From positions 1-25,637 of IMG/VR virus record IMGVR_UViG_3300025009_001472: a stretch of DNA of 25,637 nucleotides, one strand, 5' to 3'. The notes beneath the pieces were generated by a model. That model was not told where the DNA came from and searched no databases. It saw only the letters and a program-made list of their open reading frames with translations. Positions 4,680 to 24,963 of this stretch are shown one piece after another (the stretch's first letter is position 1; the number at the start of each line of letters is the position of its first letter). Origin of the DNA: a virus. The position numbers and the translations under genes are program-made.

Positions 4680-6050
4680 CTACCTGCCCCCGAAGAGCGC
4701 GGAGGCCTCCCACATGATCGCGTTCCCATAGTTGGAGTATCCGGAGCCATGCCCACCTCCACCATAGCCACCTCCACCACCGCCTCCACCATAGCCTCCA
4801 CCATAGCCTCCACCGCCTCCGCCGTAGTAGTTGAAGCCAGACCCGCCGCCGTAGGAGATGCCCGCGGAATAGAGGCTGAGGTCATTGTCCGGCGCGGTTG
4901 GATCAAGACGCCACCAGATATTTTTGGCCACTTGAATATAACCGAGCAGTTTCATCGCCTCCTCTACCGTTGCGTACCCGTAGAAATCCCTAAGAACCTT
5001 TGTCACCGCCTCCCCGATGGTGACAGGCATCTGGTTGCGATCACCAATTTGCAAAGCATACTCAATAGCCTGGACAACACGGCGGGCGTCCTCTGTGATT
5101 TGTCTGGTCAGGTCTCCCTCGACCTGCTTTTGATTAGCAAAGGCGTCGTAGCTCTCCGTGACCTGTCCCACGGATTCGGCGGCGGTCTTGGGCGGCGTCT
5201 GAGAAGTGGGCGCTGTTCCCACAGCCGAAACGCCACTAGCAGAGTTGGCGGCAATCTTGGCTCGATAAGCAGCGTAGCCTGGCTCGAAGCCCTGGCCCAC
5301 GAATGTCTTGTAGGTCTCGATGTAGACCTGGTTGTAAGCCTGGTTTGTCTCTCCCGCTGGCCGCGCGCCCACACCGCTGCGTCCCGAGGGCGAGGTCTGG
5401 TAAGCCGCTCCGAGTTTAGGCGGCGGCTGGTATTTGGGTAAATCCTCTGATTTTAGGCCCGTGCTTGTAGTTGTGGCCCCGCCCGACATGGTTTCCCACG
5501 GAGGCCTTGCGCCAACCCCATGTCTGCCCGAAGGTGCGGTTTGGTATGCCACTCCAATGCCTAATTGGGCCTGGAGGTTGGCATTCTCCAAACCCGAACC
5601 CATCACCCCGGAACTTGGGGCTGCCGCTGCCGCTGCCGCTGCCTCCTCTGCTTCCTTGGCCGCTTGCAACTCCGCGTAGGTGGCCGCGCCAGGCACGGGC
5701 TGCGCTCCCGCCGTCCGTGGGCTTACGTAGCCGCTGAAGCTCGAGGGCAGGTAAAGCTGGTCTCCCGGCTGCAAGTTAAAGAACATATTTCCGGCGCTGT
5801 CGTAACTGATGAACTGGGCATTGCGGGGGTCATTCAGGATCGCGCCATAGGCGCGTGGGTCCCCATAATAATAGTTTGCAATGTCAGATGGCGTGCTGAG
5901 GCCGCCCCCCACCGTGACGGTTTTTGGCACGTCGTAGTAGCCAAGCTGCTTACTTACGAAGTCAACCGATTTCCCCTGCGCGAAAAGTTTCTGCGCCTCG
6001 GGTTGCAGCGACTTCGGGAGCGACCTAAGGTAATCTACCTTCTGTCCCAT
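4680..6050 (-). CDS. LysM-like, glycine-rich virion protein
   Basis: 456 aa. Residues about 44-103 look like a degenerate LysM domain: DIANYYYGDPRAYGAILNDP followed by LQPGDQLYLP, the ending seen in LysM modules of baseplate and tail proteins. An Ala-rich run (about 137-144) follows. A motif is then duplicated: YQTAPSGRHGVGARP near 169-183 and YQTSPSGRSGVGARP near 217-231. A helical region spans about 300-385 and the tail is Gly/Tyr-rich (about 399-435, repeated YGGG). The gene lies between the 74-aa ORF (26-nt overlap) and the giant ORF (ATG directly after this stop), so it is co-translated with them. A structural role is likely from context; whether it binds peptidoglycan or another virion protein is unknown. 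The Gly-rich tail could be an assembly or adhesion segment. Confidence 0.75.
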   Translation of the reverse strand: MGQKVDYLRSLPKSLQPEAQKLFAQGKSVDFVSKQLGYYDVPKTVTVGGGLSTPSDIANYYYGDPRAYGAILNDPRNAQFISYDSAGNMFFNLQPGDQLYLPSSFSGYVSPRTAGAQPVPGAATYAELQAAKEAEEAAAAAAAAPSSGVMGSGLENANLQAQLGIGVAYQTAPSGRHGVGARPPWETMSGGATTTSTGLKSEDLPKYQPPPKLGAAYQTSPSGRSGVGARPAGETNQAYNQVYIETYKTFVGQGFEPGYAAYRAKIAANSASGVSAVGTAPTSQTPPKTAAESVGQVTESYDAFANQKQVEGDLTRQITEDARRVVQAIEYALQIGDRNQMPVTIGEAVTKVLRDFYGYATVEEAMKLLGYIQVAKNIWWRLDPTAPDNDLSLYSAGISYGGGSGFNYYGGGGGGYGGGYGGGGGGGGYGGGGHGSGYSNYGNAIMWEASALFGGR

Positions 6051-12188: not shown

Positions 12189-12259
12189 CCTGCTCCTCCT
12201 CCGACTGCCTCTCTCGCGAGAGAGAGGCAGTAGAGGGCGAACAAGCCCGGAAAGGATAG
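12189..12259 (+). repeat. Hairpin plus ribosome-site cassette, copy 1
   Basis: 71 bp nearly identical to 13001-13074. It holds a perfect 12-bp stem (ACTGCCTCTCTC with GAGAGAGGCAGT) closed by a GCGA tetraloop (12204-12231), then GGGCGAACAAGCC and the ribosome site GGAAAGGATAG that serves the gene at 12263. No U-tract follows, so it is not a standard terminator. Confidence 0.9.
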
Positions 12260-12558: not shown

Positions 12559-12933
12559 ATGAAACAGGTCATAAACCCAAAAACGCTGGAAAACTTTGGC
12601 CCCTGCTCGCCGGCCAAAGATGAATTCGAGAAGAAATTCCCAAAGGGGTTCGACATCGGCCCGTTGTGGGGGACAGAGGAGGAGGCCAATGGAAAATGGC
12701 ACGAACTACTTGCTGATCCCCTGCTCAAAAAGTATGTGGGCTGGGCGATTGCCAATGGAGTCCTCCCAGCCCGCATTAGGGCCAACCTGAGCGGGGCCAA
12801 CCTGAGCGGGGCCAACCTGAGATGGGCCAACCTGAGCCAGGCCGACCTGAGCGAGGCCGACCTGAGCGAGGCCCGCCACAACAAATACACCACGTGGCCA
12901 GAGGGGTATAAGCCCCCCCAGGAGGGAAAATGA
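12559..12933 (+). CDS. Pentapeptide-repeat protein
   Basis: 124 aa from the ATG at 12559, with AGGAG upstream; the longer frame from 12520 overlaps the previous gene. Residues about 1-75 are a distinct N-terminal region (NPKTLENFGPCSPAKDEF..). Then come consecutive A(N/D)LSx repeats (about 75-107), the signature of the right-handed quadrilateral beta-helix of pentapeptide-repeat proteins, and a short tail WPEGYKPPQ. Some members of this fold mimic DNA and inhibit gyrase. With only about seven repeats here that role is speculative. Confidence 0.85.
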   Translation: MKQVINPKTLENFGPCSPAKDEFEKKFPKGFDIGPLWGTEEEANGKWHELLADPLLKKYVGWAIANGVLPARIRANLSGANLSGANLRWANLSQADLSEADLSEARHNKYTTWPEGYKPPQEGK

Positions 12934-13142
12934 CCCACAATGCCCTCGCCCTTGCCGCCGTATTTGCCCTCGTACTCGTGACCGCCCTCACCCTGGCATA
13001 CCTGCTCCTCCTCCGACTGCCTCTCTCGCGAGAGAGAGGCAGTAGAGGGCGAACAAGCCGCCCGGAAAGGATAGTTCAATGGAATGGATTTACGATGACA
13101 ACGGGCTTACCAGCCGATACGGGATTACTCGTATTCAGTTAG
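12930..13142 (+). CDS. Small single-pass membrane protein, tail replaced by hairpin cassette
   Basis: 70 aa starting in an ATGA overlap, with GGAGGG upstream. Residues 4-28 are one hydrophobic helix (ALALAAVFALVLVTALTLAY). From about residue 25 the reading frame enters the second hairpin cassette, giving an Arg-rich tail (LSRERGSRGRTSRPERI), and it then overlaps the next gene by 64 nt. The original C-terminus was probably lost or extended when the cassette arrived. The membrane part may still be functional. Confidence 0.55.
   Translation: MTHNALALAAVFALVLVTALTLAYLLLLRLPLSRERGSRGRTSRPERIVQWNGFTMTTGLPADTGLLVFS
13001..13074 (+). repeat. Hairpin plus ribosome-site cassette, copy 2
   Basis: 74 bp, identical to 12189-12259 except for a 3-nt insertion (GCC) after AACAAGCC. 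Same 12-bp stem with GCGA loop (13016-13043) and the same ribosome site, now 4 nt before the ATG at 13079. This copy lies inside the 3' part of the membrane-protein frame. Confidence 0.9.
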
Positions 13143-15647: not shown

Positions 15648-15918
15648 TGCCTTGCTCCTCAACTTGCGATAGTTTATTCTTTCGCATCCACGCCTCCATC
15701 CTCTCGGATTGCGCCAGCCTTTCCCGCTCGCATTGGGCGCAGGAGACCTCGTGCTCCACCAGTTCCTTTGCAACCTGCTGAACGAGACGGGCAGCGTGTT
15801 CGCGTGTCCTTGAATTACGGCGGCTACCCTCATAGTAGGTAATGGCGTACCCGCAGCGTTTGAAGATCTCGGCGGCGGTGAGGCATCCCTGCGGCTGCCT
15901 GCCGATGGCGACGTTCAT
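15640..15918 (-). CDS. 92-aa protein with CxxC knuckle
   Basis: Start at the ATG at 15918, which overlaps the upstream stop as ATGA. Residues 10-30 (GCLTAAEIFKRCGYAITYYE) look like a short HTH-type unit. The middle is helical and a single CAQC pair (60-63) is followed by a charged helix. It overlaps the next gene by 8 nt. It could be a small DNA-binding or metal-binding adaptor. Confidence 0.65.
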   Translation of the reverse strand: MNVAIGRQPQGCLTAAEIFKRCGYAITYYEGSRRNSRTREHAARLVQQVAKELVEHEVSCAQCERERLAQSERMEAWMRKNKLSQVEEQGNG

Positions 15919-17000
15919 CCGGCGATCCCAAGCTCGTCGGCCAACTCCCAATATGCCTCCGTGTAATCATGGTTGTTCTTCGCGAGCATCACCTGCCCCT
16001 TGCTCTGGGGTATCCCGTTCTCCTTCACGAAATCCCAATACATCGAGGAGTTTTTGTGTGCGCGCTCATCGCTGTTGCTGACTTGCGCCTCCTGTTTCTT
16101 CGGCTTCGACTCTGCGGCAGCTTTTGCTACTTCGGCTTCAATTACCTCCTCGCCGTCCCCATTCTCATAGCCGTTGCCCTCCGGCAGGAATGCGCCGGCG
16201 GGGGAGGCGGGCAAGCTGGTGGCATAGCTCTCGGCAACCTTCGTGCGCACCCACTCCGGGTTCGCCTCTAGGTGCAGCAGCCACTTCTCCACACGGATGC
16301 GCTCGCCTCCCGCACCCTTGCCCTTCGGCACGGAAATCTTTTTCGGCTTGCGGTATAGGTCGATCAGGATGCGGCTCAGGCTATCATTCCCCGTCACCTG
16401 CGCGTTCGTCCATTGCAAGGCGTCCAGGTTGCCCGAAATCTCGGCGATGTCCCAGATCGAGGTCGTGTGTACCGTGAAGAAAGCCAACCGCCCAAGAATG
16501 GGGAGAATAACTTTTAGGCGGCCCGCCGGAGTTGCGTAAAGCGGAATGCGTTTGCCCTTCTGGTTCATGTAGTGACCCACCGGCGCATCGGGGTCAAACA
16601 CGCGCAGCTTCCCGTCCGCATCCCGCCAATCCTTGACCAGCACCTCCAGCGTCTCCGGGTCCTTCAACTTCTCGAAATAATTCAGAGTGAGGTCAGCCTC
16701 GGGCAGGGGACAGATACCGGCGCGGGCCTTCAACTCGCTGGCGGTATACGCCTCATAAGCCGCTTCCCAGCAGCGGTCACGGTCAGGGAACGGCAGCCAA
16801 ATTTGGATCTTCGCCGGTTCGCTGCCGTAATGCTGCTCGAACACGCGCTGCGCCTCGCGCTCGGCCTCGGCAAACACTACGCGGAAATAGGTCAAGTCCT
16901 TGCCGGGTTGGTCTGCCCTGGTTTTCTCCTCGCCCTTGCGTATCTGCCCGATCTCCGGGAACGCCATACCCCTGTCAGTAAGTCCTACGATTCCAGACAT
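15915..17000 (-). CDS. Recombination directionality factor-like protein (phiC31 gp3 family)
   Basis: 361 aa from the ATG at 17000 (GGAGG 5 nt upstream). The N-terminus reads GIVGLTDRGMAFPEIGQIRK, then TYFRVVF, a putative substrate-like segment AKIQIWLPFPDRDRCWEAAY, and VILPILGRLAFFTVHTTSIW, DIAEISGNLDAL. This order (I-GL-G-IR start, central VILP.L strand, T.S..D) follows the Gp3-like family, whose founding member tells a serine integrase to excise. A Lys/Glu-rich linker and a separate C-terminal helical unit (SMYWDFVKENGIPQSKGQVM) follow. Members also occur in phages without a known integrase, so excision activity here is inference. No integrase is in the window. Confidence 0.8.
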   Translation of the reverse strand: MSGIVGLTDRGMAFPEIGQIRKGEEKTRADQPGKDLTYFRVVFAEAEREAQRVFEQHYGSEPAKIQIWLPFPDRDRCWEAAYEAYTASELKARAGICPLPEADLTLNYFEKLKDPETLEVLVKDWRDADGKLRVFDPDAPVGHYMNQKGKRIPLYATPAGRLKVILPILGRLAFFTVHTTSIWDIAEISGNLDALQWTNAQVTGNDSLSRILIDLYRKPKKISVPKGKGAGGERIRVEKWLLHLEANPEWVRTKVAESYATSLPASPAGAFLPEGNGYENGDGEEVIEAEVAKAAAESKPKKQEAQVSNSDERAHKNSSMYWDFVKENGIPQSKGQVMLAKNNHDYTEAYWELADELGIAG

Positions 17001-17012
17001 TTCTTCCTCCAA

Positions 17013-17927: not shown

Positions 17928-18611
17928 TCAATCGAATTGCGGAAGCTTCTCGCCATCCCACCTACAGTTAGGACACTCGACGGCGTGAATGGCGAGGATT
18001 TGTTTCTTATGCGCTTTGACGTAAGCCTCCCACGCTTTGTCATAAGCCTCCCGCGCTTTGTCATAAGCCTCCCGCGCTTTGACGTTAGCCTCCCACGCTT
18101 TGGCGTAAGCCTCCCGCGTTTTGGCGTAAGGCTCCCACGCTTTGGCGTAAGCCTCCCGCGCTTTGTCATAAGCCTCCCGCGCTTTGGCGTAAGGCTCCCA
18201 CGCTTTGGCGTAAGCCTCCCGCGTTTTGGCGTAAGGCTCCCACGCTTTGGCGTAAGCCTCCCGCGTTTTGGCGTAAGGCTCCCGCGCTTTGGCGTAAGCC
18301 TCCCACGCTTTGGCGTAAGCCTCCCGCGTTTTGACGTAAGCCTCCCACGCTTTGGCGAAATATTTCGGAATAGCCAACTGCCTCTTGGCGGGCCGCATTA
18401 GCGTTAGCCGTTCAAGCCGCTCACGCTCTGGTTTTTTCGTGCCGATTTCAACCGCGCGCTTGCAAAACTCCTCGAATAGCATCGGCCAATATAGCCGAGA
18501 CGCCGGTTGGTGCCAGGGGTGCCAGATGAATTTCAGCCCCGCCCACGGCTTTGGGAAGGGGACATCGTATTCTTCGTAAATCTCGCGGGCTTGCTTCTCG
18601 GTTTCGGTCAT
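17928..18611 (-). CDS. Heptad-repeat protein with C-terminal CxxC knuckle
   Basis: 227 aa, first gene of the leftward operon, with GAGGAG 5 nt upstream. Residues 1-85 are a globular N-terminus rich in Trp and Pro (WAGLKFIWHPWHQPASRLYW), likely a separate fold. Residues 86-197 are 16 uninterrupted seven-residue units of the form AKAWEAY / AKTREAY / DKAREAY, with alternating Trp and Arg units. A single long helix or coiled-coil rod is expected. The end holds ECPNCRWDG (one CxxC). Phages carry similar Trp/Tyr/Ala repeat proteins of unknown role. The unit is exactly 21 bp, so copy number can vary by recombination without frame loss. Confidence 0.8.
   Translation of the reverse strand: MTETEKQAREIYEEYDVPFPKPWAGLKFIWHPWHQPASRLYWPMLFEEFCKRAVEIGTKKPERERLERLTLMRPAKRQLAIPKYFAKAWEAYVKTREAYAKAWEAYAKAREPYAKTREAYAKAWEPYAKTREAYAKAWEPYAKAREAYDKAREAYAKAWEPYAKTREAYAKAWEANVKAREAYDKAREAYDKAWEAYVKAHKKQILAIHAVECPNCRWDGEKLPQFD
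18021..18356. repeat. 16 tandem 21-bp coding repeats
   Basis: 336 bp of degenerate 21-bp units (plus-strand form GCTTTGGCGTAAGCCTCCCGC). They differ at a few fixed positions (GGCG/GTCA/GACG; CGC/CAC; AAGCC/AAGGC), so neighbouring copies form a higher-order pattern that suggests past duplications of two- and three-unit blocks. Confidence 0.9.
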
Positions 18612-18645: not shown

Positions 18646-18674
18646 ATTCTAGCATATCTCCTCAATCCTGTCAA
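18646..18674 (-). promoter_or_regulatory. Leftward promoter of the recombination operon
   Basis: Minus strand: perfect TTGACA (18674-18669), a 17-nt spacer, TAGAAT (18651-18646). Predicted start near 18639, giving a leader of about 28 nt before the ATG at 18611. The -35 box is the left half of the palindromic operator. Confidence 0.85.
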
Positions 18675-18685
18675 GTGACTTGACA
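18669..18685. promoter_or_regulatory. 17-bp palindromic operator shared by divergent promoters
   Basis: TGTCAAGTGACTTGACA is a perfect palindrome around a central G. Each half supplies the TTGACA -35 box of one promoter. Polymerase could hardly bind both promoters at once, and any dimer bound here would block both. The flanking 97-aa HTH protein is the natural candidate. Confidence 0.75.
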
Positions 18686-18708
18686 ACCTGTTTCTTTTGT
18701 GATATTCT
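18680..18708 (+). promoter_or_regulatory. Rightward promoter for the HTH regulator, near-leaderless
   Basis: TTGACA (18680-18685), 17-nt spacer, TATTCT (18703-18708) with TG one base upstream (TGATATTCT). Nine bases separate the -10 box from the ATG at 18718, so the leader would be about 3 nt and carries no ribosome site. Confidence 0.8.
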
Positions 18709-18717
18709 TGTGCCGAG

Positions 18718-19011
18718 ATGAAACCCTACGAAAAAGCCATTGCGCAACGAACCCTATTCAAAGAGTATCTCAAAGCCTTGATGGCCGAGCGCAAGGAAAC
18801 GTTCCGCAAGTTCGCGGCCTCTCTGAATTCGGGGCTGCCTGAGGACGCCTGCATAACTCATGCCACCGTACATGCGTGGTCACAGGGGAAGTACATCCCA
18901 GGCCGGAATTACTTTGCCCTCATCATGGCCTACTATGAAGACGGTTCCTGGCAGCGCGACTTTGGCCGCCGCGGGCTTGAGATTCTCTATCCGGGCGGAG
19001 CGCTGTTCTAA
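18718..19011 (+). CDS. Small HTH regulator at the divergent switch
   Basis: 97 aa. Residues about 28-70 (FRKFAASLNSGLPEDACITH, then TVHAWSQGKYIPGRNYFALI) look like a Cro/CI-type helix-turn-helix: helix, variable turn, then T.HAWSQGKY.P in the recognition-helix position. The C-terminus (RDFGRRGLEILYPGGALF) has no known dimerisation domain. The gene starts 33 nt from the palindromic operator on a nearly leaderless transcript, as many phage repressors do. It is probably the repressor or Cro-like protein of the switch; which of these is not decided by the sequence. Confidence 0.7.
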   Translation: MKPYEKAIAQRTLFKEYLKALMAERKETFRKFAASLNSGLPEDACITHATVHAWSQGKYIPGRNYFALIMAYYEDGSWQRDFGRRGLEILYPGGALF

Positions 19012-19169
19012 TGGAAAATGAAATGCTCGGCCACGATGTCCTCACCCACGAAGGGCCGGGCACGATTGTGGGATTACGCTACGGGTACGTTCTGCTCGTC
19101 CGGCTAGTTATCGCTTACGTTGTGCGCCTGCAAGACGGCGAACTCGTGCTGTGGAAGCCGAAGGCCTAG
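19011..19169 (+). CDS. 52-aa protein coupled to the HTH regulator
   Basis: 52 aa beginning in a TAATG overlap with the HTH stop. Beta-rich: GHDVLTHEGPGTIVGLRYGY, then VIAYVVRLQDGELVLWKP, which suggests a small SH3-like or KOW-like barrel. Similar short proteins with the HEGPGTIVG pattern (a signal like GDxVxxxxGxGxV) occur in phages. Function unknown. Confidence 0.65.
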   Translation: MENEMLGHDVLTHEGPGTIVGLRYGYVLLVRLVIAYVVRLQDGELVLWKPKA

Positions 19170-19171
19170 CC

Positions 19172-19199
19172 TTGCGCCCCGCCCGCGACGTGGTACAAT
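19172..19199 (+). promoter_or_regulatory. Promoter for the structured leader and replication genes
   Basis: TTGCGC (19172-19177), 16-nt spacer, TACAAT (19194-19199). Predicted start near 19206, just before the 5' strand of the leader's upstream helix at 19208. Confidence 0.6.
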
Positions 19200-19207
19200 G
19201 TCTCTAT

Positions 19208-19298
19208 CCGCTGCCGCCAGAAGCCCGCTTTGGTGAGGTTTTCGGTTCGTCCATTTAGGTGGCGGCGGAAACCGGAGACCTCATCCAAGCGGGTTTTT
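19208..19298 (+). promoter_or_regulatory. Attenuator-like leader RNA with two competing helices
   Basis: P2: 19224-19247 pairs with 19270-19293 with one mismatch and three G-U pairs in 24, extended by 19219-19223 against the U-tract 19294-19298. This is a terminator hairpin with a 22-nt loop and TTTTT end. P1: CCGCTGCCGCC (19208-19218) pairs in all 11 positions (two G-U) with GGTGGCGGCGG (19258-19268), which sits in the P2 loop. P1 directly abuts P2, so full coexistence looks sterically difficult and a switch is likely. The ribosome site GGAG (19303-19306) of the initiator lies 5 nt downstream. Alternatively the hairpin ends a small RNA of about 93 nt. Confidence 0.7.
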
Positions 19299-19312
19299 CG
19301 TTGGAGCGAGCA

Positions 19313-20134
19313 ATGCCACAAATACAAGGCCTGACCATCCGCGAGGAAACAACCGAATACGTCACGGAATATGGGCAGCTAAAAGAAAAGAAATTACCGC
19401 CTTTCATCAAAATGGACGTTACCTTTCGAGAATCATTGAGCCTTTTATCGGATGCCTCTCTTTCCGTTTTTATCTGCATTGCCCTTCACATCAACGAAAA
19501 AAGCGAGTCTTTTCCCTCCTACGAAACCATAATGGCCGAGACCGGATATTCCAATCGCTCAACGATCAAGAGGGCACTGGACAAACTGGCCGGTCTATCT
19601 CTAATTCAAATAACTCCAGGGGGGGGACGAGGAAAGCCCAACACCTACCAGATAAAACGATTTATGTCCTATGGAAAGAGTCCGAAAAGCGGACAGAATA
19701 GAGGGGGAGAAACAGTCCAGTCTGTGAATAAACAGTCCGTTTCGCAACAAGAAACAGTCCACTTAGTGAGACGGGAAGAAGAACCAATAAGAAGAACCAA
19801 TAAGAAGAAGAACCAGGGGGGTGGCTTCGCCCCACGCCACCCCGCCGTCCAGGCTTACACCGATGGGGCGAAATGGAACGCCAGCCCTCCCCAGGCGGAG
19901 GAAATCATCAAAATCGTGGGGGAAGAACCAAACGACATCGAGTTCTGGTATTCCGTTGCTCGAGCCTACGTTCTCGCCGGCTGGAACCGCAGCAACGTGG
20001 GCGCAATGCTTGACTACTACCAGCGCCGAGAGCTGCCCGGAACGAAACAGAACCGCTCCACCAGCAAGACCGCCCGGAACATGCAACTGCTGAAAGAAGT
20101 CATGGAGGATCGCGAACGTGGCGAAACCGAATGA
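19313..20134 (+). CDS. Replication initiator with N-terminal winged helix
   Basis: 273 aa from the ATG at 19313 (GGAG 6 nt upstream). A GTG at 19259 would put the protein start inside the leader structure and is rejected. Residues about 45-115 form a winged-helix domain of the phage-replication type: LSVFICIALHINEKSESFPS, then ETIMAETGYSNRSTIKRALD and LIQITPGGGRGKPNTYQI. A low-complexity linker (about 120-175) is encoded by the direct repeats described separately. The C-terminal region (HPAVQAYTDGAKW.., FWYSVARAYVLAGWNRSNVG) is helical, as in DnaD-like or O-like initiators that contact the helicase loader. The loader gene follows with overlap. It likely binds the phage origin. Confidence 0.8.
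   Translation: MPQIQGLTIREETTEYVTEYGQLKEKKLPPFIKMDVTFRESLSLLSDASLSVFICIALHINEKSESFPSYETIMAETGYSNRSTIKRALDKLAGLSLIQITPGGGRGKPNTYQIKRFMSYGKSPKSGQNRGGETVQSVNKQSVSQQETVHLVRREEEPIRRTNKKKNQGGGFAPRHPAVQAYTDGAKWNASPPQAEEIIKIVGEEPNDIEFWYSVARAYVLAGWNRSNVGAMLDYYQRRELPGTKQNRSTSKTARNMQLLKEVMEDRERGETE
19675..19812 (+). other. Putative replication origin inside the initiator gene
   Basis: Three perfect iteron-like repeats AAACAGTCC at 19710-19718, 19730-19738 and 19752-19760, spaced 20 and 22 bp (about two helical turns). A 1-mismatch copy lies at 19675-19683. They are followed by two perfect 13-bp repeats GAAGAACCAATAA (19778-19790, 19791-19803) and a partial third, in a purine-rich, relatively AT-rich stretch. 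Iterons followed by an unwinding-type repeat block inside the initiator gene repeat the design of the lambda origin in gene O. Function is inferred from architecture only. Confidence 0.6.
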
Positions 20135-23158: not shown

Positions 23159-23184
23159 CGGTGGCGAGATAGATTATGTTAGGA

Positions 23185-23236
23185 TATAATTTGCTCATCA
23201 CAAAAAAGCACTCGCGCGGTGTAAGCCGCCGAGTGC
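23185..23236 (+). promoter_or_regulatory. TATAAT box and hairpin upstream of the GIY-YIG gene
   Basis: A perfect TATAAT at 23185-23190 without a good -35. Downstream, 23208-23236 folds as a 7+4-bp stem with one bulged base (GCACTCG / CGAGTGC outside). Read leftward the hairpin is followed by TTTTTT (23207-23202), so it also has terminator form on the minus strand, although no leftward gene is visible to its right. Confidence 0.5.
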
Positions 23237-23262
23237 GTGGCTCAACAAAGAGGATGTCGAGC

Positions 23263-23721
23263 ATGAGCATTTTACCATCAGAATTCCAAAAAATCCTTCA
23301 AAGCGAACATATTGTTTTATCTGATCTCCTCGAAAAGATAACCGGTATTTACGGCATAAGAAATCTCGAAACAAAAAGGGTTTATGTTGGTCAATCAATC
23401 AATATTCTCGCACGCATATTGGATCATACTAACAAACTTCATAATCGAAGACATCCCTGTCTCCGACTTCAAGATGACGTGGATATATTTGGTCTTCGAG
23501 TTTTTGAGGCCTATCTCATTGATGCGCCCGTCCAAAAACGACACCTTCTGTATCTTGAATCTCAAACTATTTGCAATATTCTAAATCAAGGAGGAAGTGT
23601 TTATAATTCTAGTTGGTCTTTTTGTCATCCCCTTCACGAAAAATTTTATTTGAAATATAAGGAAACCGCAAAAATTGGATATAAAAAGGACAACTCACCC
23701 CTCCCTAATATGCCTAAATGA
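23263..23721 (+). CDS. Free-standing GIY-YIG endonuclease
   Basis: 152 aa from the ATG at 23263 (AGAGG 9 nt upstream; ATGs at 23254 and 23176 are less likely, the latter lying upstream of the hairpin). Motifs: GIYGI (28-32), then YVGQS (41-45), R51, H55 and the catalytic glutamate in LLYLESQ (E99), followed by a C-terminal CNILNQGGSVYN. This is the full set of the GIY-YIG nuclease domain. The gene is strongly AT-rich relative to its neighbours and has its own leader, as expected for a mobile homing-type endonuclease. I see no intron. Confidence 0.9.
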   Translation: MSILPSEFQKILQSEHIVLSDLLEKITGIYGIRNLETKRVYVGQSINILARILDHTNKLHNRRHPCLRLQDDVDIFGLRVFEAYLIDAPVQKRHLLYLESQTICNILNQGGSVYNSSWSFCHPLHEKFYLKYKETAKIGYKKDNSPLPNMPK

Positions 23722-24497: not shown

Positions 24498-24963
24498 TAT
24501 ATGGTATCGGACGCTCGGACACCCACAACGTGCCCTGCGGGTAGAAAAACAATCTGATGGGTGGCGGTTCTGGTATCACGACAAAGATCTGAAGCGCCGC
24601 GAAGTCAGCCAGCCAATCACGGAGGAATTGGCGCAATTCCTGATTGAGACGTTTCAACTGGTTCAATGGAAGCGGGCCGAGACCGCCGCGGAGTTTGAGG
24701 AACTTAGAATTATGATTGGCCCGTATCCTGATTTGCTGGAGGAGCAAAAATATGAACGTCGCTACATAGTTGGTATAGGAGATATCGTAATGACCACCAG
24801 AGGGAAAGGCCATGTGGTTGGTTTCAATAAGTTTGTCCCTCCCGGCTTCTACTGGGGCGAGAAGACTCGTATCGACGGCATCTATGTGACCATTGAGGGA
24901 AACACGATAGAGTTACAACCCAATGAAATCCTAGAAGTAATTCGGGAAGCCGAAGATGTCTGA
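24484..24963 (+). CDS. 159-aa protein with C-terminal SH3-like segment
   Basis: GTG start at 24484 with GAGGAGGT upstream, overlapping the previous gene by 14 nt. The N-terminal half is alpha/beta and basic (WRFWYHDKDLKRREVSQPIT). From about residue 97 GDIVMTTRGKGHVVGF and IDGIYVTIEGNTIELQPNEI form an SH3/KOW-like barrel pattern (GDxV..T.G.G.V.G). Such segments bind nucleic acid or proteins. Function unknown. Confidence 0.65.
   Translation: MRLLDIWYRTLGHPQRALRVEKQSDGWRFWYHDKDLKRREVSQPITEELAQFLIETFQLVQWKRAETAAEFEELRIMIGPYPDLLEEQKYERRYIVGIGDIVMTTRGKGHVVGFNKFVPPGFYWGEKTRIDGIYVTIEGNTIELQPNEILEVIREAEDV

Follow-up and report, generated by a model that had tools for sequence, protein, structure and literature searches.

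A candidate attenuator with a crossing second helix ahead of the replication initiator gene of a phage

In phage lambda, the terminator tR1, on which N acts through nut sites, separates cro from the cII-O-P operon, and the O gene carries origin iterons within its coding sequence. In P4, transcription of a replication operon is described as ending prematurely within its untranslated leader, and the account of CI RNA includes complementary leader segments (PMC4825925). The Gifsy-1 prophage makes from one promoter both a short terminated RNA, IsrK, and a read-through mRNA, with alternative folds (PMC4825925). Additionally, early-operon RNA structure can alter the response to terminators in cis, as in HK022 putRNA (PMC9378689), and transcription attenuation acts in the leader of the replication initiator repR of pIP501 (PMC4981023).

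The leader considered here belongs to an uncultured phage, and the window analysed is the entire IMG/VR virus record of 25,637 nt (Table 1). A preliminary description of this DNA held that an attenuator or small regulatory RNA at this place would be new, which is too strong a claim, as premature termination before replication genes is already known (P4 CI RNA, pIP501 RNAIII, lambda tR1). Read rightwards, the locus consists of divergent promoters, a 97-aa ORF, a 52-aa ORF, the leader and the initiator. A 17-bp palindrome, TGTCAAGTGACTTGACA (18669-18685), is common to both divergent promoters, contains or abuts their -35 elements and occurs once in the window. Both sites are strong promoter-like matches, and the palindrome is likely an operator of the immunity type. 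Neither of the two small ORFs has a match in Pfam or PHROG, and the predicted structure of the 97-aa product is of low confidence (pLDDT 47) and not interpretable, so that "cro-like" refers to its position only. The gene downstream had been called a replication initiator, and this is borne out by an HTH_36 domain (E 6e-9) and by best PHROG matches that are replication initiation families (E down to 1e-8). Within this gene, three AAACAGTCC repeats, spaced by 20 and 22 bp, form a candidate replication origin.

Several features elsewhere in the window are recorded for completeness. An ORF with a match to the Gp3-like recombination directionality factor family (15915-17012, - strand, E 4e-15) suggests that the phage is temperate and that its serine integrase is encoded beyond the contig. 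In the ORF at 17928-18611 (- strand), a 21-bp unit (AKAREAY/AKAWEPY heptads) is repeated about 16 times, and the repeat part matches tail-fibre families. An exact 59-nt direct repeat (12189-12247 and 13001-13059, 812 bp apart) holds a 28-nt palindrome, ACTGCCTCTCTCGCGAGAGAGAGGCAGT, tandem 15-bp repeats at 12764-12883 encode pentapeptide-repeat-like ANLSG/ADLSE units, and a GIY-YIG homing-endonuclease-like ORF is located at 23176-23721.

Table 1 Coordinates of the features at the leader and in its surroundings
Feature	Position	Strand	Basis or remark
Divergent sigma-70-like promoter, leftward (TTGACA-17-TAGAAT)	18674-18646	-	Sequence match
Divergent sigma-70-like promoter, rightward (TTGACA-17-TATTCT)	18680-18708	+	Sequence match
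97-aa ORF	18718-19011	+	cro position
52-aa ORF	19011-19169	+	Between 97-aa ORF and leader
Candidate promoter (TTGCGC, 16-bp spacer, extended -10 TGGTACAAT)	19172-19199	+	Sequence match
P1 5' arm	19207-19218	+	Pairing, fold
P0, weak hairpin within P1 loop, covers part of P2 5' arm	19220-19242	+	-9.2 kcal/mol
P2 5' arm	19224-19247	+	Pairing; extends to 19219 against U-tract
P1 3' arm, within P2 loop	19258-19269	+	Pairing, fold
P2 3' arm	19270-19293	+	Pairing
U5 tract, predicted 3' end of terminated RNA	19294-19298	+	Sequence
Shine-Dalgarno GGAG of initiator	19303-19306	+	Sequence; ATG at 19313
Replication initiator, HTH_36 winged helix, 273 aa	19313-20134	+	Pfam and PHROG
AAACAGTCC iteron-like repeats (n = 3)	19710, 19730, 19752 (19710-19760)	+	Inside initiator gene

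The hairpin P2, reported earlier as a helix of 24 positions with one mismatch followed by a U-tract, is confirmed by pairing, folding energy and shuffling. It pairs at 23 of its 24 positions (three of them G-U) around the mismatch T19231-C19286, and five more pairs, 19219-19223 with 19294-19298, lengthen it to 29 positions, still with the one mismatch. Among stems of 20 or more positions that have no more than one mismatch and a loop no longer than 40 nt, it is unique on both strands of the window, and dinucleotide shuffling of the entire window, repeated six times, produced none of this class. As RNA, 19219-19305 folds at -48.0 kcal/mol (z = -7.3; equalled in 0 of 200 shuffles), and P2 is the strongest hairpin-plus-T-tract of the window at -46 kcal/mol, the runner-up reaching -32. 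The base of the stem, CCCGC/GCGGG, leads directly into five U and then C; this tract is confined to the + strand, where it faces the initiator, and the reverse strand folds less well (-36 vs -51.9; z -2.0 vs -5.5). A stable G+C-rich hairpin with an immediate U-tract is what characterises an intrinsic (Rho-independent) terminator, and P2 with its U5 is likely to be one. The U-tract had been placed 5 nt before the ribosome site; the close spacing holds, with a measured distance of 4-5 nt to GGAG.

A promoter had likewise been proposed at 19172, and a promoter-like site is indeed present, but its core is the extended -10 TGGTACAAT at 19191-19199, one of five such sites (at least 5/6) on both strands of the window, whereas 19172 marks a weak -35 (TTGCGC, 3/6). 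Transcription is predicted to start at A19206, a purine at the usual distance from the extended -10. Counted from this start, the P1 5' arm would span +2 to +13 and the 3' end would fall near +93, yielding a predicted promoter-to-U-tract transcript of about 93 nt that carries P1 at its 5' end.

The pairing of the sequence 5' of P2 with the P2 loop, given as 11 of 11 positions including two G-U, is likewise upheld, and U19207-A19269 adds a twelfth pair, so that P1 pairs at all 12 positions. Runs of at least 12 pairs arose in 5 of 5000 shuffles with a 17-nt flank and in 33 of 5000 with a 40-nt flank, and real phage flanks set against the P2 loop put the chance at 0.1-0.8%, uncorrected for the choice of target. 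P1 is unlikely to have arisen by chance; it is less striking than P2 because its sequence is G+C-rich and GCC-like.

P1 and P2 have no nucleotide in common, and each P2 pair crosses each P1 pair. Consequently, any exclusion between them is geometric, and P1 is not a conventional antiterminator; P1 uses neither terminator strand, and only the weak P0 uses the P2 5' arm. The proposal of two alternative folds thus stands in that both are predicted, but the helices are disjoint and crossing, and the geometry allows partial coexistence. The pseudoknot with a zero-length connector, suggested as the other possibility, is geometrically implausible with a full P2, since all 24 P2 pairs and an intact P1 would leave zero nucleotides between the helices on the 3' side. 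P1 and the 9-12 lower P2 pairs may, however, coexist as a pseudoknot, with 12-15 nt left and a 5-nt linker. Stacking plus a fixed penalty of 9.6 gives estimates for this structure of -33 to -38 with the window allele and -37 to -45 with the allele of its relatives (see below), and the P1/P0 state at the same lengths lies at -34 to -37, on par with the window-allele estimate. With a pseudoknot about as stable as P1/P0, P1 may hardly affect termination.

Folding of the nascent leader was followed by advancing the exposed 3' end in two-base steps, using equilibrium energies and nested folds, with no kinetics. For the window allele, P1/P0 is the best fold from 19266 to about 19290 and a P1-free fold is better from about 19292, while in the full-length leader P2 reaches a probability near 1, by a wide margin. 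With starts from 18716 to 19206, the mean probability of P1 is 0.97-0.98 at 19269, and P2 dominates at 19312 whichever start is used; at the intermediate length 19288, P1 is ahead for most starts but not for 18900, and a start at 19210 loses P1. An alternative fold is therefore preferred, in this energy model, before the terminator is complete, as an attenuator requires. The attenuator proposed in the preliminary description accordingly retains its terminator shape and its order of P1 first and P2 afterwards, but not the form of a classical antiterminator, as P1 leaves the terminator strands free. In this model P1 is the first helix to form and, having no base in common with P2, would have to open or enter a pseudoknot before P2 is complete; it is therefore predicted to delay or weaken the terminator, perhaps only partly, and so would set the level of read-through. 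We also considered that the P1 5' arm, once free, might mask the ribosome site (full-length fold -59.3), and rejected this, as 468 of 1000 shuffles equal this energy, which is chance level.

Relatives with the same initiator in the viral collection amount to two near-identical contigs (L002 and L003/L010), which carry neighbouring IMG sample numbers. Over 11.1 kb, L010 departs from the window at 3 substituted positions and by a 16-nt indel at 24753; L002, over 5.3 kb, has the identical three substitutions. Near-identical contigs also differ from the window by 12-nt indels at 4803 (4803-4814) and 5644. Within the leader the three contigs differ at two positions only, both in the P2 3' arm and 2 bp apart: the relatives have C for T at 19284 and A for C at 19286. 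These changes repair the mismatch and one G-U so that all 24 positions pair. In the energy model they also move the switch from P1/P0 to P2 about 4 nt earlier, from about 19290 to about 19286. Both changes are one-sided and improve P2, in a sample of two near-identical relatives. Template switching at an imperfect inverted repeat yields such arm-repairing changes (Monttinen and Loytynoja, PMC8794818), and the two substitutions are probably one such event and not independent covariation, nor are they proof that selection acted on the RNA. This suggests that the P2 arms interact at the DNA level in the population and that both alleles persist there, although an assembly artefact is a possible source of the difference. 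A longer initiator, beginning at GTG 19259, was considered and set aside: its frame is open, but both allele changes alter amino acids and ATG 19313 has the better ribosome site.

Beyond these contigs, searches of viral contigs with the initiator, the downstream ORF, the 97-aa ORF, the 52-aa ORF, the terminase and the DNA pattern returned no leader homologue, and no genome contigs with both initiator and terminase were found. Phage and plasmid collections gave no DNA match and distant protein matches only, and no comparable terminator accompanies the distant initiators (L011-L013 and L016-L022, 30-36% identity). Rfam contains no match at the gathering threshold; at E up to 5 there is one chance-level match to a miRNA model.

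We favour, with moderate confidence, the reading of the leader as a promoter-to-terminator attenuator of the phage replication initiator, built on an intrinsic terminator in a position like that of lambda tR1. In the course of events that we infer, from promoter use and folding order in the cell to termination and any regulation, RNA polymerase would start at about 19206 or read through from the early promoter near 18700. The P1 5' arm would be made first and the P2 5' arm next, the latter being held in P0, after which P1 would close. As the P2 3' arm and U-tract emerge, the far more stable P2 would form, and P1 would have to open or join a pseudoknot before P2 is completed. Most transcripts would then end near 19298 as an RNA of about 93 nt, and the remainder would read into the initiator, whose ribosome site follows. 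We assign the element to the class of intrinsic terminators in an initiator leader; the antiterminator class fails on strand sharing, although the leader may work alike. That attenuation is regulated through P1 is plausible on these folding models, and we identified no trigger or trans factor for the switch. Further points against the favoured reading are the shortness of the U-tract, with only five U ahead of a C, the estimated stability of the pseudoknot, the 0.1-0.8% chance that P1 is fortuitous, and the lack of a homologous leader outside the two near-identical contigs and of a comparable terminator at the more distant initiators. A more specific idea, which we hold to be doubtful, is that tuning depends on topology instead of strand competition, with a helix at the RNA 5' end capturing the terminator loop, the full terminator needing this helix to open or enter a pseudoknot, and the template-switch alleles shifting the switch point.

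Among the alternatives, a plain intrinsic terminator is less likely; it would have no switch, P1 would be a coincidental G+C-rich match, and the initiator would be shielded from part of the transcription that arrives from the early operon or the local promoter. In its favour are the absence of terminator strands from P1, the clear dominance of P2 at full length and a chance level for P1 that precedes any correction for the choice of target; against it, P1 has 12 contiguous pairs, lies exactly at the predicted RNA 5' end and forms before P2 in the folding model. Less probable still is a gene for a small regulatory RNA of about 93 nt, made from the promoter at 19172-19199 and ended by P2, that acts in trans: its target might, for instance, be the read-through transcript itself, as for IsrK, or it might serve in immunity, like CI RNA. 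The distance between predicted start and terminator end suits such a gene, and phages offer precedents with the same gene logic (PMC4825925), but Rfam gives no match even at the relaxed threshold, and among the top matches in the window there is no notable complement outside the leader.

The near-perfect inverted repeat might also serve as DNA, as a protein-binding or origin-related palindrome at the initiator gene and not as an RNA element. Its length, its position adjoining that gene and the apparent homogenisation of its arms at the DNA level (by the mechanism of PMC8794818) agree with this reading, which we nevertheless regard as very improbable: a U-tract adjoins the stem on just one of the two strands, folding of the reverse strand is far poorer, and the likely origin iterons are inside the initiator gene. 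Finally, we give hardly any credence to an attenuator of the pT181/pIP501 type, in which a counter-transcript pairs with the leader and decides between P1 and P2. It would share with pIP501 repR both the class of target and leader attenuation (PMC4981023), but we found no consensus-type promoter match on the - strand near 19300-19480, where non-consensus promoters are possible, and the sequence upstream of P1 lacks a U-tract that could serve an antisense terminator.

Returning to the favoured attenuator, the leader probably belongs to a familiar type of on/off brake on phage replication, its crossed helices being the unusual part. If P1 modulates P2, the competing helix would contain no terminator bases, a design overlooked by the customary searches for antiterminators, and it would sit where the phage commits itself to replication; if P1 is idle, P2 is an ordinary phage terminator, though unusually long. 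Two natural alleles, two bases apart, provide a ready-made test of terminator-strength tuning.

The likeness to P4 lies in premature leader termination, which is predicted here, and in complementary segments; the processed CI RNA of P4 pairs with seqA and seqC, and there is no sequence match here. IsrK acts on an anti-repressor via translation, whereas comparable ribosome-site sequestration in the phage leader is at chance level. HK022 put consists of two adjacent stem-loops of about 70 nt and acts on distant terminators via the zinc-binding domain of RNA polymerase, while the nascent leader folds as a single P1-closed domain with an inner hairpin, overlapping its own terminator. The pIP501 and pT181 attenuators depend on antisense RNA; near the phage leader, no consensus-type antisense promoter match was found.

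The layout also resembles lambda. The divergent promoters and likely operator, the small ORFs, the leader and the initiator with its iteron-like repeats are arranged much as in the right operon of lambda, and the terminator stands where tR1 does: between what may be a small early operon and a replication initiator that has internal repeats. No boxA or boxB was seen by eye at the leader. Moreover, tR1 is farther from its initiator than P2 is, and the phage leader adds a candidate local promoter and a crossing helix.
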